A stretch of 64,000 nucleotides of DNA, from contig JAHDQS010000003.1 in assembly GCA_018433675.1 (NCBI GenBank), positions 1-64,000 on the forward strand, read 5' to 3'. This DNA comes from Clostridia bacterium. GTDB taxonomy: Bacteria; Bacillota; Peptococcia; DRI-13; SM3-B62. The position numbers were made by a program, and so were the translations under genes. The notes under the pieces are model-generated. The model saw only the letters and a list, made by a program, of their open reading frames with translations. It ran no database searches and was not told where the DNA came from. This document shows, in pieces, positions 23,324 through 40,994 of the stretch; positions within the stretch are counted from its first letter, which is position 1, and the number at the start of each line of letters is the position of its first letter.

Positions 23324-24091
23324 TCATATTTCTATGTATTCCCGCGGTGCACGGTAGAATAAGTATCCGTTTTCTGTTGCAATATCTCGGACCATTTTAC
23401 CGGCTTCCTTGCTGTCCCTGTCAAGCAACAGTAAAACCCGCAAGTCTATTTCCTTTTTTAAATAGTCTATCCTCCTCCAGGCTTGCCTAACCCAATTTTC
23501 ATCCGCACCAATATAATCCGGAGGAATTTCCCAACAAATACCATCAAGGTACATAGCAGTGCATTTATAAAGTCGCTCCAGACCGTTATTTTGAATAAGC
23601 AAATGCTCAGGAAAAGCTTCCCTCAATTGCTTTAAAATACTGGCGGCCCCCATTAATTGAGAACTATGAAAAGCTATTGGAACAAGCGATGTATCAATAT
23701 CCCCAATTGTATCCAAAAAAAACCCATCGTATCCCGAATTTATAAGCTGTCCCGCCCGATGGAGGAGCAAACGCTGCCACCTTGCAGAAGATAAGTCGAG
23801 AAGATAAGTTGAATAAGCCTCATTTGTTAACTTTTCCCCATCTTCCCCCAAGCCATGAAGGAAATCTTCCTCTTTCAATAGCGCATATTCCAAGGCAAAT
23901 GATTGAATTTCCATCACGCTTAAATACGCCAGCACCAGTGTACCTTTATCCTGCAGTTTCCTGACACTGTCGCGTGTCTGTCCTTGAGATTCTACAACAA
24001 CCAAGTCAAATACTGAAAGCTCGTCCTCTTTCCCATATCCATAGTAGACCACAAAGTTCTGTGCCATTGCAAGAAGCTGTTTCCTTAACAA
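23324..24091 (-). CDS. GH114-type (endo-alpha-1,4-polygalactosaminidase-like) protein
   Basis: This 255-residue TIM-barrel protein is of the type found as the hydrolase domain of PelA and in fungal polygalactosaminidases. Those enzymes cut galactosamine-rich exopolysaccharide. Supporting motifs are VLAYLSVMEIQ (usually YxSVGE), the catalytic-Asp strand GYDGFFLDTIGD, and IQNNG. No signal peptide or anchor is visible: the barrel begins within a dozen residues of the start. It is either cytoplasmic or exported by an unknown route. It is the last gene of the polysaccharide operon, 28 bp after the HD-GYP-like gene. Its presence with PelF- and PelG-like proteins supports a Pel-type product. Confidence 0.75.
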   Translation of the reverse strand: MLRKQLLAMAQNFVVYYGYGKEDELSVFDLVVVESQGQTRDSVRKLQDKGTLVLAYLSVMEIQSFALEYALLKEEDFLHGLGEDGEKLTNEAYSTYLLDLSSARWQRLLLHRAGQLINSGYDGFFLDTIGDIDTSLVPIAFHSSQLMGAASILKQLREAFPEHLLIQNNGLERLYKCTAMYLDGICWEIPPDYIGADENWVRQAWRRIDYLKKEIDLRVLLLLDRDSKEAGKMVRDIATENGYLFYRAPREYIEI

Positions 24092-24119
24092 CCCATTTCC
24101 CCCTCCGGATGTCTGATAA

Positions 24120-26048
24120 CTATGTTATTCTATTTTTCATCCTGCCCGGCTTTGTTCTATATAGATACTCGGTGTATACATAGCATGTCTCGCATCTGCT
24201 GCCGTGTTCCTCACATAGGGTGTTCTCACATTCCCAGCAGTTTATAGCGGTTCTTTTGTATGCCGGGCATCTCTGACATATACTGAGGGGCGCACAGTTC
24301 ATCTCCCAACAAGCCCCCAGGGAACGCCCCTTGTAGAGAGGTTCGGCCTGTTTTTTCTCAAACCATTCCAGCAGAATACAAACGACATCTGGATCCAACT
24401 GCGTACCTGCCACTGTCTTTAAAGTATCAACAGCTTTCTCAAAGGAAAGTGGTTCTCTGTATTCTCTCCCCTTTATTTTAGCAAGAAAGGTTTGCACCAC
24501 AGCAATGATCCTCGAACCCCGGGGGATCTCCTCTCCTCTCAATCCTTCCGGATAACCATGTCCGTCATACCTTTCATGATGATATCTAACATAGCGGGAC
24601 ACCTCGTGATTGGCAATTGTGGCATCGATGATCAAAGCCCCTACCTCAGAATGGAGCTTCATCCTCTCGTATTCGGCGGTTGTGTATTTACCGGGCTTAA
24701 ACAGCAAGTCACTTGAAAGCCCCAATAAGCCTATATTGCTGAAATATGCCGCCAGCGCAATGTCTTTTACTTCTGTCTGGCTCAAATTCATTTCCCTGGC
24801 AATAATCGCTGCGTAGCGTGCCATCAGTTCCGAGTAACCGACCGTATAAGGTGTAAGCTCATCAATGCTTTTAACCAGCGTTCTCAACATATCCACGTAC
24901 GATCCAGAAAGCTTCCTAAGGTCTTCCTGTAATCCAAGCAGATCACCTAACCGCCTGGCCATCATCTGCAGGGCGGTAAAACGATGAGGCTCTACTTTAG
25001 GTATGTCAATATACCAAAAAACTACTATGCCCCAACGATCGGCAGTCTTGACCCTCACCAATACAACCTGCTCCACCCCGGCGGCAACCAGATACGAAGG
25101 CAGTTCATAAAACTCCTTCTCTTTCCTGTCCAATACACAAAAATCATTTGCACCCAATGCCTTATCCAACAACTCATGAGTTTGAGTATCCTTGGCAAAT
25201 ATTCGCAAAGTATCTTTCTCTAAACCACTCAAGAAGTCCGCTGAATACTTATCGTCCTCACGGGTCAAAAAGCCGCCTCCGGCAGCCTGTACCATATTTA
25301 TCGACAACTCCATAACAGTAGCAATACCGCCCTCTGCCTCCAGGGTATTGCTGGTGAAATTATGCAAAGCTTGAGTGGAAACATTTTTTCTTTCACTTTC
25401 TTTTCTCAAAACCTCGGTTTCATCCACCGCCGCCAACAAAGGTGCCAGTAGTTCCCCTAAGCAGTCCAGTTTCCGCAGGACCCCTTTTTCGACCCTCTTA
25501 ACAGGCCCCACACGAAACAGCATGGTTTCACCCTTCACGGGAATTTCCAGCATGGGCACCTCCCCATCCTTCACGATGGATGTCCTCTTCCCGGAATCCG
25601 GCCTTCTGGGCAATGAAAGCGGAGGCAAATAGCTTTCCTTTGCATAAGGCATTAACCCGCTGTAGGCAGGACCTATCTTCCCATCATCCAAATCTTTGTG
25701 CCGCACCGTCATTAGTAAATATTGCTCTTTTTTTTCATCAAGATGATAAAAATAGTAGCCTTCGGCCTCCACCAGCGAGCGGACAACATCTAATAAATGT
25801 AGAGTGATTTTTTCCAATCCTTCCGATGGCTGAAGGCCTGTCATCACCTTATCGACAAACCCGGCCTGACCCTTCAATTTTCCGCACCTTTTTGTCTGCA
25901 CAACGAACAGCACCAGTAACGCCATCACTGCCAGCAATAAACCCCAGATATAATAGCGTTGGTCGACACCTGAAAGGACCCTGTAAATGTACAAGGCCTC
26001 ATTCTTGAAAACAGACATGATGCTTTCAGACAACCGGTCAAACGACAC
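24120..26048 (-). CDS. membrane GAF-degenerate HD-GYP regulator with C-terminal Cys-rich domain
   Basis: 642 residues: one membrane segment (about 31-50), a GAF-like region (about 60-200), a second GAF-like region (about 225-370) and an HD-GYP domain (about 390-575). A two-CW type cysteine-rich tail follows (CWEMNC, CQRCP, CWEC, CETC). The HD-GYP domain keeps MKLH and HHERYDGHGYPEGLRG. It has lost the HD pair (LLHDIG in active enzymes, YFSNIG here) and the later metal-binding Asp (VAD becomes VVQ). It is therefore probably not a phosphodiesterase. I infer a c-di-GMP- or redox-sensing receptor for the operon, analogous to PelD, which likewise uses GAF plus a degenerate GGDEF. The start is GTG. 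Confidence 0.8.
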   Translation of the reverse strand: MSFDRLSESIMSVFKNEALYIYRVLSGVDQRYYIWGLLLAVMALLVLFVVQTKRCGKLKGQAGFVDKVMTGLQPSEGLEKITLHLLDVVRSLVEAEGYYFYHLDEKKEQYLLMTVRHKDLDDGKIGPAYSGLMPYAKESYLPPLSLPRRPDSGKRTSIVKDGEVPMLEIPVKGETMLFRVGPVKRVEKGVLRKLDCLGELLAPLLAAVDETEVLRKESERKNVSTQALHNFTSNTLEAEGGIATVMELSINMVQAAGGGFLTREDDKYSADFLSGLEKDTLRIFAKDTQTHELLDKALGANDFCVLDRKEKEFYELPSYLVAAGVEQVVLVRVKTADRWGIVVFWYIDIPKVEPHRFTALQMMARRLGDLLGLQEDLRKLSGSYVDMLRTLVKSIDELTPYTVGYSELMARYAAIIAREMNLSQTEVKDIALAAYFSNIGLLGLSSDLLFKPGKYTTAEYERMKLHSEVGALIIDATIANHEVSRYVRYHHERYDGHGYPEGLRGEEIPRGSRIIAVVQTFLAKIKGREYREPLSFEKAVDTLKTVAGTQLDPDVVCILLEWFEKKQAEPLYKGRSLGACWEMNCAPLSICQRCPAYKRTAINCWECENTLCEEHGSRCETCYVYTEYLYRTKPGRMKNRIT

Positions 26049-26050
26049 CT

Positions 26051-26425
26051 CTAGTTCTCCCCCTTGTCATTACTACTATTTTTAGTGTGTATATTGACCC
26101 GTGTACGGTCTACGGCGATCTGCTGGGTCAACTCCCTTAAATGCTCCTGCAACACTGAAATCTGAAGGGATTGATACAGTACAATTAATAACATTATAAG
26201 TGTTGAGAATAAAAACAGCAAGGAAGGGGGGTAGTCAACGTCAAACACTTCTGCCAACACCTGCAGCGTATTAGGCGCTATTGAAAGTACCAGAATGATA
26301 AAAGCTCCCACAAGCCATAGCAGAGAATTACGCTCGTTTATTTTCCTCTTCACCAGTAAAACAAAAACCATTAAAACAAAACCAATTCCGCAAAATAGCA
26401 CCAACAGTCTTAGTATATCACTCAT
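26051..26425 (-). CDS. DUF2304 family membrane protein
   Basis: A 124-residue protein with three membrane segments (about 5-23, 35-53, 67-86) and a charged cytoplasmic tail of about 35 residues. DUF2304 proteins are typically encoded beside DPM1-type glycosyltransferases and are thought to assist polyprenyl-phosphate-sugar synthesis or transfer. Its start overlaps the end of the neighbouring GT2 gene by eight bases, which supports a functional pair. Confidence 0.8.
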   Translation of the reverse strand: MSDILRLLVLFCGIGFVLMVFVLLVKRKINERNSLLWLVGAFIILVLSIAPNTLQVLAEVFDVDYPPSLLFLFSTLIMLLIVLYQSLQISVLQEHLRELTQQIAVDRTRVNIHTKNSSNDKGEN

Positions 26426-27152
26426 TATTTACCCCCCCTCCGCTTTTCTTCCGCAGCAACACCACGCAAATGCTCACCAGCATTTTCAAACCATAATACA
26501 ACGGTTTTATCCCATTATGCATGCTCTTCCCGGAATCCCTGTCCCTGATATTCGCCGGAAACTCACAAATGCTATAACCGGATAGCAGCATCTGTATCAG
26601 AACATCGGCATCAGGATAATCGGACGGATACCTTCCCAAGCCGGCATAATATGTGAATGTTCTATAAGACAGCCCCTGCAATCCTGAAGAGGGGTCAGTA
26701 ATACGGACCCCGGTGGTCAGTTTTATCAATAACCTAAATGTCCTGATGGCGAACATTTTTACAAACCCAACCCTATAACTGCTCTTCCCTAAAAAGCGCG
26801 AGCCCAAAACAATATCCCATTTCTTTTCCTCCAATAACTCCAGGATAGTCCCAATATCACACGGGTCGTGCTGTCCATCCGCATCAAACTGGATAACACA
26901 ACAATACCCGGCATTCACAGCATATTTATAACCGGTCTGCAGGGCTCCGCCATATCCCAGGTTATATGGCAGAGAGATTAAAAGCACCTGCTCTCTTTCA
27001 ACAACAGCCGCGGTACTGTCCACAGAACCGTCGTCAACCACCAGTATATCCATCCGAGGATATTGCTTCTTCAATTCCGATAGGACCCTTCCAATGTTTT
27101 TTTCCTCATTATGAGCGGGAATAATGATAAGACAATCCGACAATGTTTGCAC
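26418..27152 (-). CDS. GT2 glycosyltransferase, DPM1-like
   Basis: This 244-residue family 2 transferase resembles dolichyl- and polyprenyl-phosphate sugar synthases. The GT-A fold is marked by IIPAHNEEKNI, VVDDGSVDST, the DxD-type QFDADGQHDP and GSRFLGK. It also has TDPSSGLQG, the acceptor-side motif common in this group. It ends without the C-terminal membrane anchors of GtrB-type enzymes; the overlapping DUF2304 protein could anchor it. Its product would be a lipid-linked sugar donor on the inner membrane face, which GT-C enzymes use outside. The sugar is not predictable. Confidence 0.85.
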   Translation of the reverse strand: MQTLSDCLIIIPAHNEEKNIGRVLSELKKQYPRMDILVVDDGSVDSTAAVVEREQVLLISLPYNLGYGGALQTGYKYAVNAGYCCVIQFDADGQHDPCDIGTILELLEEKKWDIVLGSRFLGKSSYRVGFVKMFAIRTFRLLIKLTTGVRITDPSSGLQGLSYRTFTYYAGLGRYPSDYPDADVLIQMLLSGYSICEFPANIRDRDSGKSMHNGIKPLYYGLKMLVSICVVLLRKKSGGGVNNE

Positions 27153-27188
27153 CTCCCAGACGGTTAATAATCATCAAATATAGCTCGA

Positions 27189-28775
27189 TCAATTATGTAT
27201 TAATTTAAAAAGCCGCAAGCCAAACCAATAAGAAATGCCAACTGCCATGACAACCAAAGCAACATAACCTGACTGTCCCAAAAGCCCTGCCGATTCAAAC
27301 CAGAATAGCCATAATTTCTTGCACAATATAAGAACAATAACAAGGGGAACATTGGCCAGTAACAGTCTAACAACCTTCCCACCATGTTTTTTCAAGGATA
27401 ACTCCAAAACCTTATCCAAAAAATATAGCATGAGCACAGCATTTATGAGCGCTCCAATCGCAGCGCCATAGCCTAAGCCGGCTGAACCAAGTTTAGCCGC
27501 CAGATAAAAATCCAGCGCAATATTCATCAGAGACGAGATTGTTAAGCAGATGAGAGGCTGTTTCATCTTCTCCACGGATAAAAACACCCTAATACCTATC
27601 TGTACAATACCTTGCCCGACAATAGCCAGAGCATACCCGGCCAAAATACCGGCAGTCACCTGCAGTGAAACAGCATCAAACGCTCCCCTCTTAAGCAGAA
27701 TCGTGACTACAGGGATCCGGAGAAGAAAAAAAACACAGGCTAAAGGAACCGTTATAATCAGCACGGCCCACAAAGACTTCAGCAATGTACCCTTAAACTC
27801 CGACTCCTGTCCTAACCCCCTTGATTTTGACAACGAGGGTAACGCCACGGTTCCAATGGCCAGAACAAAAACCCAAATGGGAAACTGCGCTACGCGGTAC
27901 GCATAATTCAAGGCCGCAACGCTCCCCGTCCCCAGTTGTGAAGCCAAATACCTTTCAACATACAAAACACTTTGCATAGTCAAAAGAACCAACAGGTACG
28001 GAAAAAACATTTTGAATACCTTCTGTAAATCCCTCCCCGTATTAGTCTCATCCGACAGCAATTCCGGGCCGATATCCTTCCTTCGTCCGGGAAAAATCCC
28101 TAGAATATAAATCGCCGCCCAAACCAACACTGCCATAACAAGAACCGCCGTCAAGATGGAAAAAGCAATAAATCGGGCCCCCTCAGTCAAAGAAAAGTGC
28201 CAAGCATAGCTGAAAATTATCCCGCCGAGAAAGACAAGATTAAACAACACAGGCCCGACCGCAGGAACAAAAAAGCGGTTAAAAACCTGCATTACCGCAG
28301 ACCCGATCGTAAAAATCGGATACAAAACAACGGCCGGTATCATGATATAAAACAAGCGCAGGCAAAGAAGACTCGTTTCGCCCGTAAAGCCTTTGCCCAG
28401 ACTTCCCGTTATCTCCCCGGCAAAAATGGCGAAAAGAATAACAAGAAATAAAGAAAGCAGGCCAAAAGCCTTCAAAGTGCCTTTAACCCCGGCATACAGC
28501 CTGGAAAAATCCTTATCTATGTACAGCTTGGAGAAGACCGGCACAGCGGCAACACCAACGGCAACAGCCAATAAATTGTTTCCCACCGTATCAGGGATAA
28601 AAAACGCAACCAATAAAGCGTCCGCCTGTGACGAAGTCCCTAAATATAAGGCAAAAAAGACCTCACGCAATAAGGCGACAACGGCCAATAATGAATTTAC
28701 AACCATTACAACACCGACGGCATTGCCGGAACGTTTTTTAACAAACTCAATCCCGGTAAAAAAATATGATTTCAA
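27189..28775 (-). CDS. MurJ/MviN-like MOP-superfamily flippase
   Basis: 528 residues, with about 13-14 membrane segments. The N-terminal NSLLAVVALLREVFFALYLG and SQADALLVAFFIPD motifs are those of MurJ/MviN-like lipid-linked glycan flippases. MurJ moves lipid II, but copies inside polysaccharide clusters usually move other polyprenyl-diphosphate glycans. Its place between the DPM1-like gene and the deacetylase suggests a cluster-specific substrate rather than peptidoglycan (inference). It is in addition to the PelG-like exporter of the same superfamily encoded upstream. Confidence 0.85.
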   Translation of the reverse strand: MKSYFFTGIEFVKKRSGNAVGVVMVVNSLLAVVALLREVFFALYLGTSSQADALLVAFFIPDTVGNNLLAVAVGVAAVPVFSKLYIDKDFSRLYAGVKGTLKAFGLLSLFLVILFAIFAGEITGSLGKGFTGETSLLCLRLFYIMIPAVVLYPIFTIGSAVMQVFNRFFVPAVGPVLFNLVFLGGIIFSYAWHFSLTEGARFIAFSILTAVLVMAVLVWAAIYILGIFPGRRKDIGPELLSDETNTGRDLQKVFKMFFPYLLVLLTMQSVLYVERYLASQLGTGSVAALNYAYRVAQFPIWVFVLAIGTVALPSLSKSRGLGQESEFKGTLLKSLWAVLIITVPLACVFFLLRIPVVTILLKRGAFDAVSLQVTAGILAGYALAIVGQGIVQIGIRVFLSVEKMKQPLICLTISSLMNIALDFYLAAKLGSAGLGYGAAIGALINAVLMLYFLDKVLELSLKKHGGKVVRLLLANVPLVIVLILCKKLWLFWFESAGLLGQSGYVALVVMAVGISYWFGLRLFKLIHN

Positions 28776-28825
28776 GCCCAGTTTCCCCGCCTTCTCCTAG
28801 TATTTGCCGCATATCGGCAACAACT

Positions 28826-29671
28826 TCACACCACATGCTCCGGGCATTCAACAGAGCTAATGATTTCCCCCAACGGAGCAAATTCAAATTCTTGCAAGAG
28901 CATTTCCAACTTCTCGAGGGTTGTCGATAAGTTGGAATAATGAGCAAAAGCGATATGCGGAGGCACCCGCAGCCTAGGCTGCTTTGTATCGGCTTCCCAA
29001 GGATGAATATATACCATGCCCGGTCTTTCCTTGTTTACCCTCCGTAAAGCCCGCTTAATCAATCCACCTGGCAAAGACCTCAGATAGAGCCCTCCGGCAA
29101 AGGGCAGATTTAGTCTGCCTACCCGCAGCACAGTCGAAGGGAATTCCACAAGCCTAAGAGTCCTGGAATTGATGACAGGGTGAAAAGGGAAATAAGGAGC
29201 GCCATTCATACCTGAAAGGGGCGTCCTAAAGGGTTGTACACTTGAATCACAAAGAAACCCTTCCTCCTCCAACACCTCAAGCATCCACAGAATTTTCCTC
29301 GATATGGACCAGGAGGCCGCCCTGTAATAGACCACCTTTTTTCCGGCAATTTGTTCAATAATCTCTCGCGATTCGCGCAAATCCCGGATGAATTCTTCCC
29401 TGGATAATCTGTTTACCATTTTGTGCCACATGCCATGAGAGCCTATTTCATGTCCCTTCTCCACACACTCCCTGACCAGTTTCGGGTGCTGTTTAGCTAC
29501 AGATCCTAGCACAAAAAACGTGGCCTTTGTCTCGTACTTGTCCAACATCTCCAGTATTTTTCTTGTGTTGTCTTCCACCCGACTCTCAAAGTTATCCCAA
29601 CATTCGGGAGAAAAATTAAAATCATTGCTCTGATACCAGTCTTCTACATCTATTGTCATCACGTTTTTCAA
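28826..29671 (-). CDS. polysaccharide deacetylase (CE4, DUF3473 type)
   Basis: This 281-residue NodB-homology deacetylase resembles those linked to exosortase-type exopolysaccharide clusters. The metal and catalytic motifs are MTIDVEDW, EIGSHGMWHK and the YYRAASWS segment. The C-terminal MVYIHPWE matches the DUF3473 region. There is no signal peptide, so it would act on a cytoplasmic or membrane-face intermediate. Partial deacetylation of N-acetylgalactosamine is a defining step in Pel maturation, which makes this enzyme a candidate for the PelA deacetylase function. That link is inferred from context. Confidence 0.88.
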   Translation of the reverse strand: MKNVMTIDVEDWYQSNDFNFSPECWDNFESRVEDNTRKILEMLDKYETKATFFVLGSVAKQHPKLVRECVEKGHEIGSHGMWHKMVNRLSREEFIRDLRESREIIEQIAGKKVVYYRAASWSISRKILWMLEVLEEEGFLCDSSVQPFRTPLSGMNGAPYFPFHPVINSRTLRLVEFPSTVLRVGRLNLPFAGGLYLRSLPGGLIKRALRRVNKERPGMVYIHPWEADTKQPRLRVPPHIAFAHYSNLSTTLEKLEMLLQEFEFAPLGEIISSVECPEHVV

Positions 29672-29686: not shown

Positions 29687-30853
29687 CTACCTTGCAAAAA
29701 ACCGCCTCCACATCGATCTGTCAAACAAATAACGCAGACAGGCCAACGCAAACCCCCATACGGGCAGCAAATCTTCATAAGAAACAATGTCGTTGTAAAG
29801 TCCTTGCTTCTTTCCGCTAAAAAACGGCGGGTCCAGAGCAAACCTTTCTTTATTCGTCAGAAAATGCAGGATATCCCCCGGCAAAAGCCAACGACACCTA
29901 ACCCCGGTCTCATACCTTAGTACTTCTTCACAATCGCCCTCCACAGCCAAAAGATACAACAGCCAGGGAAAATCAACACCTGATAGGATTGAAAGCTGCA
30001 GCGAGTTCCAGAACCTAGGGTTTATTTCCATGAATTTATATTTACCCTCTTTCTTATCGTACATAAACTCAACCTCGGCAATTCCCCACCAATCCAAGCG
30101 GGTCATCAAGTCCTGGGCCTGCTTCAGCAATTCGGGGAAAAATACACTTTCCTGCACAGTGCTGGGCCCCATCTTGGTAGGAAAATGTCGCAGTTCCTTT
30201 TGTACAAACCCGGCTTTTAACTTACTATCCTTCCCCAACAAAAGGCAGACATCATAGCGTTCACCGGGCTCCATGTATTCCTGCACCAGCGGAAGGGGGT
30301 AAGTCTTGTGAACCGCTAAATAAGTCTCCCTGAAATCCCCTTTACACTCCACAACCCTAATACCCCGCGAACCTGAACTTTTTCTCGGCTTAATAACCAC
30401 CGGAAATTCCAACTCCTGGCACACCGTCTCCAGTTCCTCTAGGCTGGTTATCATCCGGGTTTTTGGGCAATCCAGCCCCGCTTCCCTTGCCGCTGACACA
30501 GCCAGTCCCTTATCTGCCGCAAGTCTATAACTTTCAGTGGAGGGTAAAGGAATAATGGTGTATTGCTCCAATTCAGCACGGTTTTCTGCAACAATATCCA
30601 GCGTGGCATCATCCATAGGCAACAACAAATCAAACTTTTCCTCACGCAGAGTTTGAAGCAGCCAATCGTAAAATTCCGCAGGCTTATCAATAGGAGAAGG
30701 ATACACCAGCGAATCTTTACAGTATTTTGAAAAGAAGGTGGGATTGAACCTTGTCTCCTCCGCCGCAGTTACCCTTATCCCCTTCTTCCCCAAAGAACGG
30801 GTTGCCGCCAATGCTTTTCTTTGCTGGGCATCGGTTATTAGTACTCTTTTCAT
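29687..30853 (-). CDS. ATP-grasp family ligase
   Basis: 388 residues. An N-terminal pre-ATP-grasp domain (MKRVLITDAQQRKALAA) is followed by ATP-binding FPVVIKPRKSSGSRGI and metal-binding residues in EVEFMYDKK and FMEINPRFWNS. Such proteins join a carboxylate to an amine or thiol through an acyl-phosphate and are common in polysaccharide clusters, where they may add amino-acid substituents. The substrate is unknown. Its 5' end overlaps the preceding membrane protein gene by four bases, showing translational coupling. Confidence 0.85.
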   Translation of the reverse strand: MKRVLITDAQQRKALAATRSLGKKGIRVTAAEETRFNPTFFSKYCKDSLVYPSPIDKPAEFYDWLLQTLREEKFDLLLPMDDATLDIVAENRAELEQYTIIPLPSTESYRLAADKGLAVSAAREAGLDCPKTRMITSLEELETVCQELEFPVVIKPRKSSGSRGIRVVECKGDFRETYLAVHKTYPLPLVQEYMEPGERYDVCLLLGKDSKLKAGFVQKELRHFPTKMGPSTVQESVFFPELLKQAQDLMTRLDWWGIAEVEFMYDKKEGKYKFMEINPRFWNSLQLSILSGVDFPWLLYLLAVEGDCEEVLRYETGVRCRWLLPGDILHFLTNKERFALDPPFFSGKKQGLYNDIVSYEDLLPVWGFALACLRYLFDRSMWRRFFAR

Positions 30854-32943: not shown

Positions 32944-34946
32944 CCCCGATAATTCCGCACCATTTGGGGGCTCAGAAATAATCCCCCCCAGAGCTGCTCG
33001 CGTCGCTCTTCTTTAGATTGCGGCTGGTGGATATGCCATATTTTCAAATTATCGTCCTCATAATAAACGCTGATGTTGTCGTGCTTTTGACAGTAAAGAA
33101 AGAGCCATTCCTCCAGCACTTCCATTTCCTTTATGCGCCTTTCATATATTTCACGCATACTCTCAAATTCGGTATCAAACACTTTCTTTTCCTGATAGAT
33201 AAAAATGTCAGGTGTTTCTAAAACCACATTTTCTCCATTCTCTATGCTGTATAGTTCTTCCGTTTCCGGATCATACCAACTGAGCCAATCCTGCATCATT
33301 AAATGATACCCTGTCCCTAAGACCATGGCATACCCTTCCTCCTGGGAGACTATCATCCACTCGGTAGGACGAAAACCATTCCTGATACGCAAATATTGCT
33401 CTACCGCAGAATCATAATCCATCTTGTAGGGTATGATGGGTACCGGTCGCAGAAACACAACCAATGAAGCCAAAAGACCAAAAGATACCAATACCTCCGG
33501 CACCCTGTCTTTATAAAATGAAAGCACGCTACTTACAACATGGTATCCCATCCCGATTAGAACCGGAATCATCAACGCCCATAGTGTTCCGGAGCGGCTG
33601 GCAATCACCGTACTATTTGTTATCACTCCCCCATAACGGTAAAGACAAAAGGTTGCAACACCCAATAAGGCAAGATAAATGTAGGCTTGTTTTTCCCGCA
33701 TGGAACGTCTGTTAAACATGAAATACAGCATCATCAGGACAATCGCCGCCAATGCAAAGTAATCCGTTACAATGAGCGCTGGGATACTGAATGTGCTTTG
33801 GCTTATCAAATAATCGGCAGAAGAACCGTGGAAATCCTTACCCATCAACATGCCAATCGCGAGGGGCAGCAGGGCTAACATTACAGTGCCCATTCCCATC
33901 AAACAAAGGTTTAATACTTTTTTGAAAATACCCTTACTTCGCAAAAGAGGCACCGTTAGTATTGCGATAAAAACACACAGTCCGGCAAAGGCAAAAGCAA
34001 CAGTATGCACGAGCCCCATCACGCCCAACGCCGCGGAGGCTATCCAAAAATCCTCTTTCTCCCCTTGCCTCAGGTAACTCAGTAAATAATAAATAAACGG
34101 GAAGATAAAAATAAAGGCAAACTCCTGTGAATTAGTTGAAGCCTGCCGTACCCAATCCAGATGCAGGTACATACCCAAGATGCCGAAGACACCCCCGGAT
34201 AAAATTCCGGGCATCCTACGTTTGGTCAAACCGGACACCAAACAATAAATCGCCAGAGTGGTAATAACCCCATTCAAAGGCCCTGTATACCTTAAAACAT
34301 ATAAGGCATCAATGCTGGTAAACTTATGGATAACGGCAAGTATAATATGGAACCCCTGGGGGTAAATACCGTCATGAAACAAAATCCTTCTGTTAATGTA
34401 TTTCATCCAGGCTAAGGTCACATAAGCGTCGGACATGGCAGGCGCAGCATGGATAAAGGCATCGAGAAAACGCAAATACGCCGAATAAATAAGCATTACC
34501 GCAAACAAAAGCGTGGTTCCTGCCGCGGTAAAACCACCAAAGCAGCATCGTATCAGGCGATGGCAGCTTAACTTGAAATGATTAAGCCATCCCTTCAGAG
34601 CGTTTTTCAGGCCGCGTCTTCCTTCGGCATATTCAAAGATCCTGAGCTGCACATGAGACAACAGGTCATCCCATCCCTCCAGAGAGTTCCTTTTTATAAA
34701 GCTGTAAAGAAACATGACTATAAAAATAGCCAGCAGCGCCAAGAGTTCAAATAATTTAAGGAGTACAAGGAGATAACCTAAGATAATCAACAACACAGTT
34801 ATTTTGATATAATTCCTTGCCGCCCTATCGGTATATCCACCGTCCTGCCTGGTAAAAATAAGTCTGGGAATCACCAGAAAAACCAGTAAATATGCAATGG
34901 CATAACTCAAAATGTGAATTGCTTGATTATCAAAAGCAGCATACAT
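32934..34946 (-). CDS. large multi-pass membrane protein, GT-C-like (paralogue B)
   Basis: This 670-residue paralogue of the following gene has the same layout: N-terminal membrane pair, short cytoplasmic loop, about ten further membrane segments and a soluble tail ending in an EDDNLKIWHI motif. The aligned loop SDAYVTLAWMKY...FHDGIYPQGFH is well conserved between the two copies. They overlap by 10 bp and probably arose by tandem duplication with later divergence. Two enzymes of this kind would suit a repeating unit with two externally added sugars, or a transferase plus a ligase (inference). Confidence 0.7.
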   Translation of the reverse strand: MYAAFDNQAIHILSYAIAYLLVFLVIPRLIFTRQDGGYTDRAARNYIKITVLLIILGYLLVLLKLFELLALLAIFIVMFLYSFIKRNSLEGWDDLLSHVQLRIFEYAEGRRGLKNALKGWLNHFKLSCHRLIRCCFGGFTAAGTTLLFAVMLIYSAYLRFLDAFIHAAPAMSDAYVTLAWMKYINRRILFHDGIYPQGFHIILAVIHKFTSIDALYVLRYTGPLNGVITTLAIYCLVSGLTKRRMPGILSGGVFGILGMYLHLDWVRQASTNSQEFAFIFIFPFIYYLLSYLRQGEKEDFWIASAALGVMGLVHTVAFAFAGLCVFIAILTVPLLRSKGIFKKVLNLCLMGMGTVMLALLPLAIGMLMGKDFHGSSADYLISQSTFSIPALIVTDYFALAAIVLMMLYFMFNRRSMREKQAYIYLALLGVATFCLYRYGGVITNSTVIASRSGTLWALMIPVLIGMGYHVVSSVLSFYKDRVPEVLVSFGLLASLVVFLRPVPIIPYKMDYDSAVEQYLRIRNGFRPTEWMIVSQEEGYAMVLGTGYHLMMQDWLSWYDPETEELYSIENGENVVLETPDIFIYQEKKVFDTEFESMREIYERRIKEMEVLEEWLFLYCQKHDNISVYYEDDNLKIWHIHQPQSKEERREQLWGGLFLSPQMVRNYRGCC

Positions 34947-34961: not shown

Positions 34962-36572
34962 TTAAGAAGCAGCATACAGGTAATAATCAAGCTTACCCAA
35001 CACCTTCCGGACATACTTTGTGGAAAACGCCAAAAAAATGATTGCACCCGCTAAAAGCCCGAAAACAGCAAAATAGTAGTCAAACCAACGACTCAAGGCA
35101 AATCCCACGATGAAATTACCGAGCAAGGCCGGGCCAATACTACGCAGAGCCATTTCCGGTTGAGACACGACAAACAAAATGAGGGCATTCATCAACGCCA
35201 CGCTCAATACAGCATAAGCCAATAACGCAACAATAAAAACCATTCTTATTTTACCGACGTTTATCAACTTGAATTTTTCTGCGAAAATAAGGAAATTCCC
35301 CAGATACCCTACTCCCCAGTAAATCAACAAGGCACTAGCTATGGAAATAAGAACTACTAATACCATTCTTTTGTAATAGAGTTTAAGGTACAGTCGGGAC
35401 AAAAGATGTGTATCCCGGCTCATAAATTCCCTTTGGTATGCCTCCAGATTAATCGTCAACTCACTTACAACCACCTCGACAAACCCCATCGGCAAGATTA
35501 GCGCAAACAAAGCCAAATCAAGCCCCAACTCATAAGTGCCCCTGAACCAGATTATATAGGGCATATACATGTTGTTGGTAGACCAAGCAACGATCCTATC
35601 CAAAAACAGAAAGGTAAAATACAAAATGCCATATGAGAAATACGGCAATGTGGTGTAAATGGTAATGGAAGTTCTGGGCAAGGCGGGAACAATCCCTCTT
35701 TCCATTTTCTTTTCAGCTGCGGAAAAAAAGTAAACTGACAATATTATCGACATTAAAGATACTACGCTTAAAGCAATGGCTTGGGCAAAAATGATATTCA
35801 TCTCCAGCAGGCCAAAAAACACAAAAACGAATCCAATCCCGGCAACCAGCAATAATGAAAAAACCAATTCCTTTTTCAAGACATACATAACTGTCACCGA
35901 AAGCCAGATAGCACTCAAAAAGAAAAAATACAAAAGAACGATGTTGCTTACTCGACTGGGGAACACGCCGAAAAAGAGATTAAATACCATAAATACCGCT
36001 GAAATAGCAAGACAAATCACAAAACCTGCCTTGATAAACTTAAAAGTAATCTTACGTGCCATATTATAATAACTTTGGCCTATATAGAAAAAGCCCCTCC
36101 TGGCAATGGCTTGCATGAAGCCACCCGCCACCATGAAGCTCATGACTGTACCAATCGCAATTCCCGTGGCTAATTCCAGTGATAAATACTCGTAAGACCA
36201 CAGTGAATATTCAAGTATCAGCATTGAAAAGATAGAAATCGCCATGGGGAAAGCAAACACCGTACCCCTTAGAAAGCTTCGTCCAACCATTAGCAAGTAC
36301 AATAGCGGGCTTAACCTTTCCCCTTTTTGAAATGAACCTGCCACAACTCCCTTATGAGCAAGTTCCCAGAGCTCCGAAGCCAAAGAAAACACATTTTCGG
36401 CACCGTACTCCTCTGCCGCCCTATTGTCGTTCCAGCCCTTCGCCTCCAGAATAGCTGTTATTTCATAACGATCAAGGGGTTGTCCGCGATTTTGCAGTGT
36501 TTCATTTAATAAATCCTCGATTTTTTTACCGCGTTCTCTTTGTTCTCCATCGCCAGTAAACCTCTTGCTCAC
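34962..36572 (-). CDS. pelG: PelG-like exopolysaccharide exporter (MOP superfamily)
   Basis: 536 residues: a soluble, charged N-terminus of about 90 residues, then about 12 membrane segments. Similarity to PelG, the inner-membrane carrier of Pel polymer, is seen in the ARRGFFYIGQSYYNMA region, the LFLDRIVAWS segment and FRGTYELGLDLALFALILP. The N-terminal extension is absent from the shorter Pseudomonas PelG. The gene is two genes from the PelF-like transferase, the expected partner. It overlaps the coiled-coil gene upstream by four bases. Alternative: a divergent MOP exporter of another exopolysaccharide. Confidence 0.65.
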   Translation of the reverse strand: MSKRFTGDGEQRERGKKIEDLLNETLQNRGQPLDRYEITAILEAKGWNDNRAAEEYGAENVFSLASELWELAHKGVVAGSFQKGERLSPLLYLLMVGRSFLRGTVFAFPMAISIFSMLILEYSLWSYEYLSLELATGIAIGTVMSFMVAGGFMQAIARRGFFYIGQSYYNMARKITFKFIKAGFVICLAISAVFMVFNLFFGVFPSRVSNIVLLYFFFLSAIWLSVTVMYVLKKELVFSLLLVAGIGFVFVFFGLLEMNIIFAQAIALSVVSLMSIILSVYFFSAAEKKMERGIVPALPRTSITIYTTLPYFSYGILYFTFLFLDRIVAWSTNNMYMPYIIWFRGTYELGLDLALFALILPMGFVEVVVSELTINLEAYQREFMSRDTHLLSRLYLKLYYKRMVLVVLISIASALLIYWGVGYLGNFLIFAEKFKLINVGKIRMVFIVALLAYAVLSVALMNALILFVVSQPEMALRSIGPALLGNFIVGFALSRWFDYYFAVFGLLAGAIIFLAFSTKYVRKVLGKLDYYLYAAS

Positions 36573-37594
36573 TCTTTCATCCCCGGAAGAAGCATATTTA
36601 CGATCAGTTCGGGCAGTTTGCCATCCGTTTCTGCTTTTTCTATCACTTCCACGGTTATCACGTCACCCTCGGTTACAATAGTCTGTCCGTTTTTATCGAG
36701 CAATTCCTTTCCGGCAATTTTACCCACTATGTACTTATGTCTGATACCCTCTATTTGGGCCTCCACTGCCGGACTTTTAACTGCTGCTGTTTTTTCCGGC
36801 TGCCGTATTTCTTCTCTTTCACTTTTCTCAAAAACCGCTTCCTTTTTCATCGCAGGCTTAATTTCTTCCTCTATTTCCCTACGACTATCCCCCTCATACT
36901 CGCGAAAAGAGCTTTCTTTTGACAAAATACCGTCAATATTATCCCAAAAACCCGGGAACCCACTATCATCATAGGTATAGCATCCGTCATAAATCCCACG
37001 CCGTATAAAAGATCCGTCTGCCGTCATTTCATTCCGATTTACAGAACTTTTTCTGACGTTAACGGCCTTTTCACTGACTGCTTCCCGTAAGGGCATTTTT
37101 TTCTCCGCAGCCGGAATGATTTTTCCAACGATTCTTCCTGCTTTCTGCCTTTCTTTCTCTTTTTTTCTTTGTTCTTTTTCTCTTTTTAAGATGGTTATAT
37201 CCTCTGATAACGCTTCAAGCTGCCTTTTTATTCCCAAGATGGTATTCTCAATTTCCGGAATACCTTCCAGACTGATTCCTTTGGCTTTTTGGGCACGCAA
37301 AACAATGCTTTCCGCCTCTTTTTCCGCATCATGCAGCAACAAAGCAACGGCGCTTTTCGTCCTCTCCAAAGCCATCCGGGAAAACTCGCCTATTCTTGCT
37401 TGTTTTTCCTTCCTTGTCGCAAGCTGCTCGAGTTCTCTGGTCAGACCGTCCCGTTTGCGATAACATCCCTCTATTTCCTGCCTTTGTTCAGCAAGGGCGG
37501 CCATATGACATTTATTCAGATTTTCAAGATACTTGTCAACCTGTTTAACGTTTAATCCCAAAATCCTTTTTGGGATTTTGCCGTCCCTAATCAT
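36569..37594 (-). CDS. coiled-coil protein with DivIVA-like N-terminus
   Basis: 341 residues. The N-terminal ILGLNVKQVDKYLENL resembles the membrane-binding start of DivIVA-type proteins. A coiled coil follows at about 30-150, then a low-complexity charged stretch (about 150-280). A compact C-terminal domain of about 60 residues contains VGKIAGKELLDKNG and LPELIVNMLLPG. I do not recognise the whole protein. Its place between pelF- and pelG-like genes, with four- and eight-base overlaps, argues that it works with the synthase-exporter pair, perhaps as a scaffold or positional cue (inference). Confidence 0.6.
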   Translation of the reverse strand: MIRDGKIPKRILGLNVKQVDKYLENLNKCHMAALAEQRQEIEGCYRKRDGLTRELEQLATRKEKQARIGEFSRMALERTKSAVALLLHDAEKEAESIVLRAQKAKGISLEGIPEIENTILGIKRQLEALSEDITILKREKEQRKKEKERQKAGRIVGKIIPAAEKKMPLREAVSEKAVNVRKSSVNRNEMTADGSFIRRGIYDGCYTYDDSGFPGFWDNIDGILSKESSFREYEGDSRREIEEEIKPAMKKEAVFEKSEREEIRQPEKTAAVKSPAVEAQIEGIRHKYIVGKIAGKELLDKNGQTIVTEGDVITVEVIEKAETDGKLPELIVNMLLPGMKE

Positions 37595-37985
37595 CTTTTA
37601 ACTCCTCCACATCCTTACTGCATTTCTGTATGGTATCAAGTATTTCTTGCGTCAATTCATCCAGTACCTTTTTGAACTCCGCGTTTTTTTCCGTATCCTT
37701 TTCTATACCTTCAGCCTGCTTAACCGCTTGATAAACCTTCTCGGTCGCTTTAAAATGCGCCTTCCCTATTAATCCTGTTATTTCAGCATTAAACTGTTCG
37801 TACCTTTGCAATTCTTCCTCTGCCCTTTTGGTCTCCTCCTGCAGCCTGACAATTTCTCCATTCACCTGCAATAACTCGACCTGCAACAAATCTTTGCTTC
37901 TTTCATAATGCTGGTCCATACGATCAATTCTGTCGGAAACAGCAACCGGCTTGTATCCAATCAACGAGCGGGAAAATTTCTTCAC
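37587..37985 (-). CDS. small coiled-coil protein
   Basis: A 132-residue, highly charged protein that is almost entirely heptad-forming (about 20-130). A short head, RSLIGYKPVAVSDRID, resembles the start of its larger neighbour and of DivIVA-like proteins. It has no membrane segment or signal peptide and is not recognised as a named family. It lies 12 bp after the PelF-like gene and overlaps the next gene by eight bases. It probably forms hetero-oligomers with the adjacent coiled-coil protein. Confidence 0.6.
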   Translation of the reverse strand: MKKFSRSLIGYKPVAVSDRIDRMDQHYERSKDLLQVELLQVNGEIVRLQEETKRAEEELQRYEQFNAEITGLIGKAHFKATEKVYQAVKQAEGIEKDTEKNAEFKKVLDELTQEILDTIQKCSKDVEELKDD

Positions 37986-37997
37986 TGCTGTTCCTCC

Positions 37998-39743
37998 TCA
38001 CGCTATTCTCCTGGCTTCCAAGAGCCTCCCTATAGCTTCTGCCTTCTCTAATTCCAAAAAGGACTTGTCGTACTCGCCTAAATTGTTATAGGCCATGGCA
38101 ATCTCCGTCAAAATTACCGGTACGGCCGGGGTATCTGGAAGTTCAGCGGCAGCCATCCTAAACTGTCTGACAGCTTCCCGCCAGTAACCAATAGCTGCAA
38201 ATGCATATCCTTTCTCTGCCAACAGTTTTTGCTTTTTAACCTTCATAACGAGAGCTTCCAGTTCACCCGGGGCGCTTTGAGCCAGTCTTTGATAGCTCCT
38301 CAGGTATAGGTCAAGCACTCTCTCTATTGTAAAATAGTTCAAAGCCCTCTCCCGGGCTTCAGCCCCAAGTTTCAAACGCATCTCATCATTTGCCAGAAGG
38401 ACCGTGATCGCTTCCGCGAGCTGGCGCGGTTCACCGGGATTTGTCAGAAAACCCGTATCCCCCAGTGCTTCCTTAATTCCTCCCACATCTGTTGCTACAA
38501 TGGCCTTTCCTACCATCATTGCTTCAACCACCGAATAGGGAAACGCCTCTGAAATACTGGATAAAGCAATTACGTCTCCGCTCCGATAGGCTGTGGGAAC
38601 ATCATCCGTGTGCCCGGCAAAAATGAAGGTTTCCTCCAATTGCAGTTCCTTTACCAGCTTTCTGCACTCTTCGTAATATACGGGGACAGAAACAGAGCCG
38701 TATAAAACAAATCTGACCTCCGGTATCTTCTCCTTGACAAAAACCGCTGATCTGATCATGGTCATAATATCCTTCACCGGGTCGATTCTGGCAACCGCCA
38801 CAACAGTCGGATATCTGTTCTTGTGAAAAGTCCTTTGCGGCGAAAACAATTCCTTGTCCACGCCGTTATATATAACCTTAATGTTTTCTTGAGGTACTCC
38901 AAATTCTTTTTCCCATCTCGTGTTATATTCGCAAACGGGTGATACCTGATCGGCAAAGGTATAATTGAGCATAACCACAGAATGAATCATCCTCATTAAA
39001 AAGGTGTTTAAAAATGTGGGGTATCCCCTTTTCCCTAAGGAAAGATACTGTTCCCTCAGATAGACACCGTGTTCCGTCAACAAAAACGGGGTTTTGTTCT
39101 GCTCCTTCGCCAGCACACACGGAACACCGCAAAAAGCCGCTGCTGCGGAGTGCGAAACATCAACCTTCGGTACGGGAGTATTTAAAATATTAAAGAACCG
39201 ATAAATCCATCCCAGGCTCTGAATAACCGAAAACACACTGGGATCTTCAAAATCCCTGTGCCCTTCTCCGGCACGTGCCATCACAATTTTCCTAAAAACA
39301 TCCCAGGTCAGCTCCGACTTGAAGCTCATCCTATAATCGTATTGCTGGAAATATCTATTCAACTCACTTAAAACAATAGCCAGCCTTTGCGGGTTTTTTT
39401 CTTCATTGAGAAACTCGTCGACCAACTCGACAAAAAGCGGAAGAAAATCGCCACGGATAACCTGATCGACCGTCATCTTTTTCCCGACATAAACCTGGGA
39501 AAAAGGCGTCGTCAAATGCTCACTGGGCTCTTCTGTTCCCCAAAGGGGTACCTTAATCAAGCCGGCTCCCGCAGGAAGTCTAAACTTCTGCGTAACAAAA
39601 GGATTCATGATTATACTATATATAGTGTAATCAACGGTCGGCAACCTGTGTGTCAAAATATCACACCAGGTACTTACCCCACCCTGATGATATGGATATG
39701 TACCTTCTGTGGCCAACATAACTTTCAGTTTATTATTCATCAT
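37998..39743 (-). CDS. pelF: PelF-like glycosyltransferase (GT4) with C-terminal TPR-like tail
   Basis: 581 residues. The GT4 core begins with the PelF signature EGTYPYHQGGVSTW. It continues with LLTEHGVYLREQYLSL and the donor-binding half (VIYNGVDKELF, VARIDPVKDI, SEAFPYSVVEAM). PelF is the cytosolic synthase of Pel polymer, using a UDP-hexosamine. After about residue 490 a helical tail (AAIGYWREAVRQFRMAA, AYNNLGEYDKSFLELEKA) looks like two or three TPR units. In other Pel systems the TPR protein is the separate PelE. It is the first gene of the long operon. Confidence 0.8.
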   Translation of the reverse strand: MMNNKLKVMLATEGTYPYHQGGVSTWCDILTHRLPTVDYTIYSIIMNPFVTQKFRLPAGAGLIKVPLWGTEEPSEHLTTPFSQVYVGKKMTVDQVIRGDFLPLFVELVDEFLNEEKNPQRLAIVLSELNRYFQQYDYRMSFKSELTWDVFRKIVMARAGEGHRDFEDPSVFSVIQSLGWIYRFFNILNTPVPKVDVSHSAAAAFCGVPCVLAKEQNKTPFLLTEHGVYLREQYLSLGKRGYPTFLNTFLMRMIHSVVMLNYTFADQVSPVCEYNTRWEKEFGVPQENIKVIYNGVDKELFSPQRTFHKNRYPTVVAVARIDPVKDIMTMIRSAVFVKEKIPEVRFVLYGSVSVPVYYEECRKLVKELQLEETFIFAGHTDDVPTAYRSGDVIALSSISEAFPYSVVEAMMVGKAIVATDVGGIKEALGDTGFLTNPGEPRQLAEAITVLLANDEMRLKLGAEARERALNYFTIERVLDLYLRSYQRLAQSAPGELEALVMKVKKQKLLAEKGYAFAAIGYWREAVRQFRMAAAELPDTPAVPVILTEIAMAYNNLGEYDKSFLELEKAEAIGRLLEARRIA

Positions 39744-40004
39744 ATATCACCAAATTAATTTCTTTTGTGACAAACATTCATACAATTCAAGCTCTTGTTT
39801 CTATATTAATATACACTTTACTACTTTTCACAATCAGATTATATCAGATGTTTACATTGCAGGCAAATTATTTGTCTTTATTTACTTGATCTATATATTT
39901 TTTCGCATCACCTATGTTTTTACCTGATTTTTTTCAGGAAATACGTTAAAATTAATGTGCTTGCTTTATTCAAATTAATCTTCATCATGAAATGAGGTAT
40001 AAAC
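39744..40004. promoter_or_regulatory. divergent AT-rich control region between pelF-like gene and galE
   Basis: A 261-bp AT-rich gap between divergent genes. For the minus strand TTGTGA and a TATTAA-like -10 about 16 bp apart (around 39795-39825) are a plausible but weak promoter. CCTGA and TCAGG form a small hairpin around 39922-39937. I found no c-di-GMP riboswitch or clear operator. Confidence 0.35.
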
Positions 40005-40994
40005 ATGAAAACAATACTAGTAACAGGCGGTGCCGGTTATATTGGCAGTCATGTTGTTAAAATGCTTGGAGAAGCCGGATACGAAGTGATCGTCTATGAT
40101 GACCTTTCAACCGGCCATGAATGGGCTGTACTATCCGGCAGGATGGTTCGCGGCAATATCAATGATACTGTCAAATTACAGGAACTTTTACAGCAATATA
40201 ATATTGATGCAGTTATACATTTTGCGGCGCATATCATCGTCCCCGAATCTGTCGGCAACCCGCTCAAGTATTACCTCAACAACGTCATGGGCACTTTAAA
40301 TCTTCTGAACGTCTTAAAACAATGTAAAATTGATAAATTTATTTTTTCTTCTACAGCCGCCGTTTACGGCATTCCCAGCATAATCCCTGTTGCTGAAGAA
40401 ACCCCTTTATCCCCAATCAATCCATACGGCAGAGGGAAAGCAATGATTGAACAGGTTTTGTCAGACCTTTCTTTCTCCAATGAGATAGATTACGTCACTT
40501 TGCGTTACTTCAACGTAGCCGGGGCAGATCCCGCAGGAAGAATTGGGGAAGGAAAGCCTGATGCTACCCACCTGATAACTATGGCCTTGCGCACTGCCGC
40601 CGGTCTGTGTCCCCATCTGGACGTTTTCGGCACTGACTATCCGACCTTTGATGGAACCTGCATCAGAGACTACATACATGTGGTAGATTTAGCAAGCGCC
40701 CATCTTAAAGCACTGGAATACTTATTTAACGGAGGAAAAAGCGATGTTTTCAACTGCGGTTACGGTAAAGGGTATTCCGTCCTAGAGGTTATTACAGCGG
40801 CAAAAGAAATAACCGGCAATAATTTCCAGGTCAATTACACCGGACGGCGCCCCGGAGATCCTCCCGTTCTGATTGCCGACTGCGAGAAAATAGGGAATAT
40901 CCTGAGCTGGCAACCGTCACACAATGATTTGCATCATATCATCGAAACAGCCTGGAACTGGGAAAAAACACGAATCGCGCGATACAACGGCTAA
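40005..40994 (+). CDS. galE: UDP-glucose/UDP-N-acetylglucosamine 4-epimerase
   Basis: This 329-residue short-chain dehydrogenase-type epimerase shows the NAD motif TGGAGYIGSHVV, the catalytic Thr region FSSTAAVYG, and the YxxxK motif in NPYGRGKAMIE. The C-terminal RRPGDPPVLIADCEKI binds the UDP-sugar. It interconverts UDP-glucose and UDP-galactose and, in many Firmicutes, the N-acetyl forms. Divergent to the PelF-like gene, it would supply UDP-GalNAc for a Pel-type polymer. From memory of the literature, Gram-positive pel loci also carry a galE; that recollection should be checked. Confidence 0.93.
   Translation: MKTILVTGGAGYIGSHVVKMLGEAGYEVIVYDDLSTGHEWAVLSGRMVRGNINDTVKLQELLQQYNIDAVIHFAAHIIVPESVGNPLKYYLNNVMGTLNLLNVLKQCKIDKFIFSSTAAVYGIPSIIPVAEETPLSPINPYGRGKAMIEQVLSDLSFSNEIDYVTLRYFNVAGADPAGRIGEGKPDATHLITMALRTAAGLCPHLDVFGTDYPTFDGTCIRDYIHVVDLASAHLKALEYLFNGGKSDVFNCGYGKGYSVLEVITAAKEITGNNFQVNYTGRRPGDPPVLIADCEKIGNILSWQPSHNDLHHIIETAWNWEKTRIARYNG

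Follow-up and report, generated by a model that had tools for sequence, protein, structure and literature searches.

A 64,000-nucleotide (nt) stretch of a Clostridia bacterium genome (GenBank assembly GCA_018433675.1, contig JAHDQS010000003.1, positions 1 to 64,000 of the forward strand; hereafter the window) carries a genuine, recurrent, Pel-related gene cluster. We think it somewhat probable that this locus encodes a membrane-based, Pel-related exopolysaccharide machine under the control of cyclic di-GMP (c-di-GMP), with a lineage and a receptor of its own. The cluster consists of 13 tightly packed minus-strand genes running from 39743 to 23324, with neighbors overlapping or lying at most 50 base pairs (bp) apart. 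Their order is PelF-like, ccA, ccB, PelG-like, TM1, TM2, ATP-grasp, CE4, MurJ-like, GT2, DUF2304, HD-GYP protein, and PelA-type hydrolase. A preliminary description of this DNA had placed PelF-like, PelG-like, GH114, and CE4 genes and a divergent galE in one locus, and these genes and their coordinates were borne out. The features that carry the argument, with lengths in amino acids (aa), are the following.

37998 to 39743, minus strand: PelF-like GT4 glycosyltransferase, 581 aa, with a C-terminal TPR-like tail; first gene of the operon.
34962 to 36572, minus strand: PelG-like multi-spanning membrane protein, 536 aa, a putative exporter.
24120 to 26048, minus strand: membrane-anchored GAF-GAF-HD-GYP protein with a Cys-rich tail, 642 aa (HD_5, 104.4 bits), the proposed c-di-GMP receptor.
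24735 to 24740, minus strand: Ser-Asn replacing the His-Asp that names the HD domain, residues 437-438, from alignments.
24549 to 24581, minus strand: HHERYDGHGYP, the retained GYP motif, residues 490-500, from the orthologue alignment.
23324 to 24091, minus strand: PelA-type hydrolase without an evident signal peptide, 255 aa (PF03537, 29.7 bits against a cut-off of 27).

The PelF-like protein scored 145.8 bits against NF038011 (cut-off 100) and 130.8 bits (1e-37) against DUF3492. In phylogenies, however, it falls into a clade that is sister to the PelF of true pel operons. The first tree (83 of 100 rows used, the 17 dropped being mostly near-copies and short pieces; long outgroup branches) separated the window branch from canonical PelF, with values of 98 and 99 in the Shimodaira-Hasegawa-like approximate likelihood ratio test (SH-aLRT). 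The same two groups were recovered at 99/98 and 100/100 in a second tree of 41 rows, hand-picked from the first set plus four plasmid proteins, and removal of the long outgroups left the grouping unchanged. The canonical group includes the Caballeronia PelF, which comes from a full pel operon. Three proteins encoded by Thermus, Deinococcus, and Streptomyces plasmids (L138, L139, and L141) lay between the two groups in the second tree; their genes are close to annotated endo alpha-1,4 polygalactosaminidase genes, and their separate position suggests that they are perhaps a third PelF lineage. Since NF038011 labels both clades PelF, existing PelF annotations merge at least two systems. At E≤1e-25, PelF was found in 4 of 46 genomes of the class, three at 141-150 bits and one (G010) at 386 bits. 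The TPR tail that had been ascribed to PelF is present in the branch (TPR_2 in 6 of 10 members) and weak in the window protein itself (E 0.18).

The PelG-like protein is, by sequence comparison, a remote homologue of PelG, because only part of the branch matches PF16933 (8 of 23 aligned members at E≤0.1, best 1.4e-7) and the branch aligns with canonical PelG in hhalign at E 5e-5 over 386 columns (probability 67%). At E≤1e-8, PF16933 was found in 10 of 348 genomes of the phylum, and the window genome was not among them. A sequence search of the PDB with the PelG-like protein and TM1 returned nothing at E≤1. The profile and phylogeny check proposed earlier thus gave a mixed outcome, with PelF above the family cut-off, yet in a sister clade, and a PelG-like protein in the window without a PelG match. 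The branch also has an N-terminal extension (residues 1-75) without counterpart in the canonical PelG consensus, in which E43, G46, D49, G57, and F62 are invariant in 23 members.

The model of the HD-GYP protein (predicted local distance difference test, pLDDT, 83.7) comprises a membrane helix, two GAF-like domains, the HD-GYP domain, and the Cys-rich tail. Its two GAF-like folds were read from the secondary structure of the model, and GAF_3 was matched in 4 of 23 members. The nearest folds found by Foldseek were 4mcw, which we take to be PmGH, and DvhD. The earlier claim of a degenerate HD-GYP protein with GAF was well founded, given the HD_5 domain, the change of HD to SN, and the two GAF-like folds. 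To the census of unique orthologues (those of the retrieved loci that scored >260 bits with profile A4; L073, a partial copy of L159, was dropped) three Campylobacterota members below 260 bits were added by hand, while a fourth, L125, was left out. HD was lost in 30 of these 53 orthologues (His position: 26 S, 2 N, 1 A, and 1 R), and the Lys of HDxGK was absent from all 53; in generic HD-GYP proteins, by contrast, both HD and K were intact in 11 of 11. Missing from the window protein are His and Asp at 437-438, Lys at 441 (Leu instead), and Asp at 519, a position that is Gln in 28 of the 30 degenerate members. H466, H490, and H491 are kept in 53/53 orthologues, Y499 in 51/53, and R528 in 52/53. 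Asn takes the place of the Asp in 29 members, which group as a single clade (SH-aLRT 100), and L079 (RD) stands apart; because this tree was built with the HD columns included, the grouping is only partly independent of that trait. To judge from these substitutions, the phosphodiesterase center is probably dead in the window lineage. The Cys-rich tail (residues 585-632), a possible metal site, is conserved in the longer orthologues; it is missing in L043-L045, and in the Sulfobacillus genomes the region is beyond the match.

A partial precedent for such a receptor is DvhD of Desulfovibrio vulgaris, which, according to excerpts of its description (PMC13090378), has SQ in place of HD, needs no metal to bind c-di-GMP, leaves it unhydrolyzed, and contacts the ligand through Tyr621, Arg650, and Tyr652. 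By our own counting along the alignments, these contacts are placed at Y499, R528, and Y530 of the window protein. Among the degenerate members, position 499 is Tyr or Phe in 30/30, and R528 is found in 29/30. We infer from this likeness that the window protein may bind c-di-GMP, and the different c-di-GMP receptor supposed in the preliminary description is plausible to that extent.

The hydrolase is encoded 28 bp from the HD-GYP gene, and the nearest solved structures are those of PelA (5tcb, E 6.6e-12). D127 and E188 are invariant in 21 aligned rows. In the alignment with PelA, D127 falls on the Asp of FLDT, taken here as the catalytic D160. E188, which lies beyond the printed alignment, corresponds to PelA E218 by spacing; E218A is named as a catalytic variant in excerpts of PMC7112168. 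No clear signal peptide was seen in 40 hydrolase N-termini, judged by hydropathy and by eye from mechanically assigned start codons, which suggests that the enzyme is probably intracellular. For 37 of the 53 HD-GYP orthologues, the hydrolase gene follows immediately downstream in the same orientation. Moreover, in Priestia abyssalis and Psychrobacillus insolitus a single protein unites the membrane-GAF part with the hydrolase and lacks GAF2 and HD-GYP; the fusions match profile A4 at E 1e-35 and 2e-34, and their hydrolase parts are 37% and 36% identical to that of the window. The loci with an inverted hydrolase gene (L147, L148, L149, L150, and L155, from Paenibacillus and Tumebacillus) encode hydrolases that score lower than most.

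The distribution of the cluster was then surveyed. A scan of named genomes for the PelF branch gave 392 relatives, of which 80 loci were kept. A PelG-like gene was found in 71 of these 80 stretches, and the other 9 stretches were shorter than 12 kilobases (kb). Carriers of the branch include Paenibacillus, Tumebacillus, Priestia, Psychrobacillus, Desulfosporosinus, Clostridium algoriphilum, Alicyclobacillus, and Sulfobacillus. A reduced version was found in Sulfurimonas, Arcobacteraceae, Nitrospirae (Nitrospirota), Acidobacteriota, the cyanobacterium Planktothrix, and an actinobacterium; outside Bacillota, an HD-GYP gene beside the branch genes was seen only in Campylobacterota. The neighborhood that had been expected across Clostridia does recur, but it is not confined there, extending to Bacilli and, in reduced form, to other phyla.

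The co-occurrence of these genes with the HD-GYP gene was just as recurrent as had been anticipated. In an even draw of 398 genomes of the phylum, the PelG-like gene (E≤1e-4) and the HD-GYP orthologue (E≤1e-80, which misses weaker orthologues; A4 contains proteins from some of these genomes) were found in the identical 10 genomes, on one contig in each. The chance of this full overlap would be about 4e-20 if the two were independent, kinship of the genomes being ignored. Among the named PelF-branch genomes (L078 is left out of this count), 40 of 49 had a full-length HD-GYP orthologue, on the same contig within 21.1 kb in 34 of the 40 and on other contigs in 6. One of these six, G458, has a more divergent copy beside PelF (L079).

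Riboswitches were found before three operons of the branch. A c-di-GMP-II riboswitch lies 52 nt before pelF in Priestia; another lies 4.4 kb before pelF in Clostridium algoriphilum, with a second copy below the gathering score; and in Paenibacillus sp. Soil522 a c-di-GMP-I riboswitch precedes galE-pelF, 2.5 kb before pelF, with a short reverse open reading frame (ORF) between.

A number of observations weigh against a c-di-GMP-controlled machine of this kind. Riboswitches are rare, being present ahead of the genes in the same orientation at 3 of 41 named loci from the phylum, and none was detected before the window operon at the Rfam gathering score, nor at L035 and L036. Nine of the 49 branch genomes had no full-length HD-GYP hit: two carry the fusion; G463 has only a stretch like residues 57-202 beside a hydrolase gene; two Sulfurimonas have divergent HD-GYP proteins under the threshold; and the rest are G455, G470, G471, and G472. 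HD is intact in as many as 23 of the 53 orthologues, which may thus be active phosphodiesterases, and a receptor role could then be limited to the clade of the window protein. Even among the degenerate members, position 530 is Tyr, Phe, or Trp in just 24 of 30 (19 Y, 3 F, and 2 W), the equivalents of DvhD K582 and E668 are not conserved (by eye on the alignment), and the HH pair, lost in DvhD, is kept and may still bind metal. Nor is the pairing of hydrolase and HD-GYP genes strict, since 5 of the 53 orthologues have the hydrolase gene inverted and for 11 of 53 none was found within 1.2 kb downstream. An intracellular hydrolase is also odd on an export pathway. Finally, profile searches placed the PelG-like protein of the window in no family: Pfam gave neither PelG nor any other meaningful hit at E≤1, and NCBIfam gave nothing at E≤0.1.

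The other genes of the operon and its surroundings bear on what the product might be. They are as follows.

40005 to 40994, plus strand: galE-like UDP-hexose 4-epimerase (UDP, uridine diphosphate), divergent from the operon (PF01370, 198.3 bits).
37587 to 37985, minus strand: ccA, DivIVA-like coiled coil, 132 aa (DivIVA, 26.3 bits, below the cut-off of 28).
36569 to 37594, minus strand: ccB, coiled coil with a conserved C-terminal domain of about 55 aa, 341 aa (DivIVA in 3 of 16 members, PRC-barrel in 1 of 16).
32934 to 34946, minus strand: TM1, GT-C superfamily membrane protein, 670 aa (AlphaFold2 model, pLDDT 88.7).
30850 to 32943, minus strand: TM2, TM1 paralogue, 697 aa, 24% identical to TM1 and GT-C by homology.
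29687 to 30853, minus strand: ATP-grasp protein, 388 aa (PF02786, 45.8 bits; PF02655, 38.4 bits).
28826 to 29671, minus strand: CE4 deacetylase of the XrtA type with DUF3473 (TIGR03006, 282.9 bits against a cut-off of 276.2; DUF3473, 1e-34).
27189 to 28775, minus strand: MurJ/MviN-like flippase, 528 aa (PF03023, 202.9 bits; TIGR01695, 193.5 bits, below the cut-off of 235.55).
26418 to 27152, minus strand: GT2 glycosyltransferase, 244 aa (PF00535, 89.7 bits).
26051 to 26425, minus strand: DUF2304 small membrane protein, 124 aa (PF10066, 79.6 bits).
23171 to 23185, minus strand: terminator-like stem-loop with a T run, downstream of the last operon gene.

The operon contains the several added genes, extra modification genes among them, that had been noticed at first sight. 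In its model, TM1 has a GT-C fold with an Asp in the first outer loop: Foldseek related it to STT3/PglB/ArnT (E 8.7e-9), comparison with 8agb_A (STT3) gave a VIA Z of 26.1 and a root-mean-square deviation of 6.7 over 433 residues, and D173, whose place in the first outer loop was read from the model, is nearly invariant in 29 rows. The CE4 ORF starts almost at the MTIDVED motif, so there is no room for a signal peptide, and the XrtA-type name does not make the locus an exosortase-type one (no search was aimed at an exosortase). In the Bacillota loci, except L104, one or two ccA/ccB ORFs separate PelF from PelG, and they are missing, with a gap of about zero, from the Campylobacterota, Nitrospirota, and cyanobacterial loci; this survey covered loci with both genes on the same strand and skipped those of the Sulfobacillus type, with PelF and PelG on opposite strands. 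The DivIVA likeness of ccA (E≤0.01 in 9 of 18 aligned members) hints at a role in placement in Gram-positive cells.

With such genes present, the locus may instead belong to a lipid-linked, Wzx-like pathway. An ordinary GT4 would act together with MurJ-like and PelG-like flippases, TM1 and TM2 would polymerize an undecaprenyl-linked glycan or transfer it en bloc, and the product would be a glycan linked to the cell wall or surface layer rather than a free Pel-like polymer. The resemblance of TM1, which is greatest to STT3/AglB/PglB, is in line with this, as are the XrtA-type CE4 and the MurJ-like gene in the operon; in Clostridium algoriphilum, a gene that by eye is like an initiating sugar-phosphate transferase lies downstream of the riboswitch that precedes PelF. 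However, a PelA-type hydrolase travels with the PelF/PelG-like genes, and no such initiating enzyme was recognized among the 13 window genes. We regard this pathway as a serious but less likely alternative to the Pel-related machine proposed above.

A second alternative is that the locus is a true Pel variant, making alpha-1,4-GalNAc/GalN Pel and differing only in accessory genes. A PelF above the NCBI cut-off, the PelA-type hydrolase, and the adjoining galE (which likewise adjoins PelF at locus L036) would fit. Nevertheless, long branches separate the window clade from the Gram-positive and Caballeronia PelF, and the gene complement differs. PelD, PelE, and a fused PelA had been reported as absent, and this was upheld: PelD was not found genome-wide, and the operon contains neither PelE, a Pel deacetylase, nor a fused PelA. 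Because PF16963 alone proved insensitive as a test for PelD (1 of 9 canonical genomes), a home-made profile from six canonical operons (A7) was used. As A7 includes an epimerase part, hits to that part alone were not counted, and the two hits in the window genome (G000) were of this kind. Among the matches listed, all 3 control genomes and G010 contained the PelD part, as did three Paenibacillus genomes (G440, G450, and G460), where it lies off the contig with the branch PelF. With the PelE, PelA-DA, and PelD part of G010 as queries, tblastn found no match at E 1e-4 in the 80 branch loci; this search covered loci, not whole genomes, and PelE diverges strongly even among canonical operons, some pairs matching at E of about 1e-8. 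All 13 window genes are otherwise described, the CE4 being of the TIGR03006 type and not a Pel deacetylase; none was assigned as PelB or PelC, at which no search was aimed. An ordinary Gram-positive Pel was rejected on gene content and trees.

G010, of the same order as the window genome, is an exception to the co-occurrence: it combines a canonical pelDE-DA-FG operon with the HD-GYP/hydrolase end of a branch operon (L034 and L037). Its 386-bit PelF sits in the canonical operon of PelD part, PelE, PelA-DA, PelF, and PelG, named by likeness to the six canonical operons. At L034, the HD-GYP/hydrolase/GT2/DUF2304 end lies at the contig end, and the only PelF found in G010 is the canonical one. 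The separate PelD contigs of the three Paenibacillus and the two systems of G010 suggest different products, and we consider a true Pel variant unlikely. We did not file the locus as Pel proper, because its PelF is in a sister clade, its PelG-like protein is below the PF16933 threshold, and PelD is missing. The earlier term "Pel branch" holds in the sense of Pel-related.

That the HD-GYP protein is a phosphodiesterase for c-di-GMP or cyclic GMP-AMP (cGAMP), lowering the signal locally and merely tuned by its substitutions, would agree with the HD kept in 23, the HH kept in all, and the GYP Tyr kept in 51 of the 53 orthologues and with the cGAMP phosphodiesterase V-cGAP3 as best PDB sequence match, but it is quite improbable, given the residues missing from the window protein at 437-438, 441, and 519, the universal loss of the Lys, and the finding, in excerpts of PMC13090378, that DvhD, with SQ at the HD place and HH lost, does not hydrolyze c-di-GMP.

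For the c-di-GMP-controlled, Pel-related machine, we infer the following scheme, in its enzymatic steps and their order, from gene content, alignments, and models; it would work as synthase-dependent export. GalE would supply UDP-GalNAc or UDP-Gal, the PelF-like GT4 would build a chain on the cytoplasmic side, and the PelG-like carrier would export it. GT2 and DUF2304 may make a polyprenol-linked sugar that TM1 and TM2 add outside, with the MurJ-like protein as a putative lipid-glycan flippase, while CE4 and the ATP-grasp protein may alter amino sugars or lipid-linked precursors in the cytosol. In Gram-positive cells, ccA and ccB could scaffold or place the complex. The membrane GAF-GAF-HD-GYP protein would read c-di-GMP, and binding would change its dimer and thereby the complex; the signal would most likely pass via the neighboring PelA-type hydrolase, which, from inside the cell, may trim or end nascent chains when c-di-GMP is low.

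On this basis, we tentatively hypothesized, with the balance tilted slightly towards doubt, that the locus belongs to a second, previously undescribed lineage of PelF/PelG machines of Bacillota, with reduced relatives in other phyla, in which PelD was replaced by a membrane HD-GYP protein that lost catalysis once, became a pure receptor, and was wired to an intracellular PelA-type hydrolase, and that Priestia dropped the HD-GYP domain for an anchor-hydrolase fusion and c-di-GMP riboswitch control. If so, the route to Pel known so far is not the one used by many Bacillota with a protein labeled PelF, and exopolysaccharide export came under c-di-GMP control in parallel by way of different dead enzymes, a GGDEF domain in PelD and an HD-GYP domain in the window branch. 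The natural series of HD intact, HD lost, and domain lost with a riboswitch would open the shift from enzyme to receptor to testing.

The boundaries of the operon and the neighboring elements were also recorded. Three terminator-like sites were found on the two strands of 22900-23400, against 0.5 expected in shuffles; promoter-like sites between pelF and galE were not above chance (2 found, 3.0 expected). Elsewhere in the window, a thiamine pyrophosphate (TPP) riboswitch (45004-45142, minus strand) lies upstream of an ABC transporter set (42097-44631) that includes a substrate-binding protein, assigned by eye. T-box leaders occur at 19128-19387 and 14600-14822 (both minus strand), the former just upstream of an ORF (17156-19060) that by eye is like threonyl-tRNA synthetase.

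No description of this gene set was found in the literature searched (open-licence papers). Two combinations look new: a pair of STT3-like GT-C proteins, GT2/DUF2304, an ATP-grasp protein, and DivIVA-like coiled coils within a Pel-related operon, and a membrane GAF-GAF-HD-GYP protein adjoining a PelA-type hydrolase without an evident signal peptide.

Several known systems resemble parts of the locus. Three-component glycosylation modules consist of a GT2, a small flippase, and a GT-C protein; the window operon likewise has a GT2, a small membrane protein, and GT-C proteins, but here as two GT-C paralogues within a PelF/PelG operon. TM1 shares its fold with STT3/AglB/PglB and ArnT of the GT-C superfamily, while identity is only about 8-14% and TM1 has extra N-terminal helices. 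DvhD is alike in being a membrane sensor whose HD-GYP domain has HD replaced, and it is among the nearest solved structures; in excerpts of PMC13090378, however, it combines dCache with PAS domains and regulates an adhesin protease, whereas the window protein has GAF-GAF, a Cys-rich tail, and a polysaccharide operon. Compared with Gram-negative Pel (pelABCDEFG; the Caballeronia operon), the window has homologues of PelF, PelG, and the PelA hydrolase, but no fused PelA in the operon, and PelD was not found. A further counterpart is pelDEADAFG of Bacillus cereus, which, in excerpts of PMC7112168, also has PelF, PelG, a separate hydrolase gene, and a divergent galE. Separate genes for the PelA deacetylase (PelA-DA) and hydrolase (PelA-H) and a divergent galE are described there for Gram-positive Pel; the separate hydrolase and deacetylase genes and divergent galE of the window are present as first described, yet already known. 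In contrast to the B. cereus operon, that of the window lacks PelD, PelE, and PelA-DA, has its PelF in a sister clade, and adds the GT-C pair, GT2/DUF2304, ATP-grasp, MurJ-like, DivIVA-like, and HD-GYP proteins. The B. cereus hydrolase has a signal peptide, whereas none is evident in that of the window, and c-di-GMP control, shown for B. cereus Pel in the same excerpts, is proposed for the window locus.

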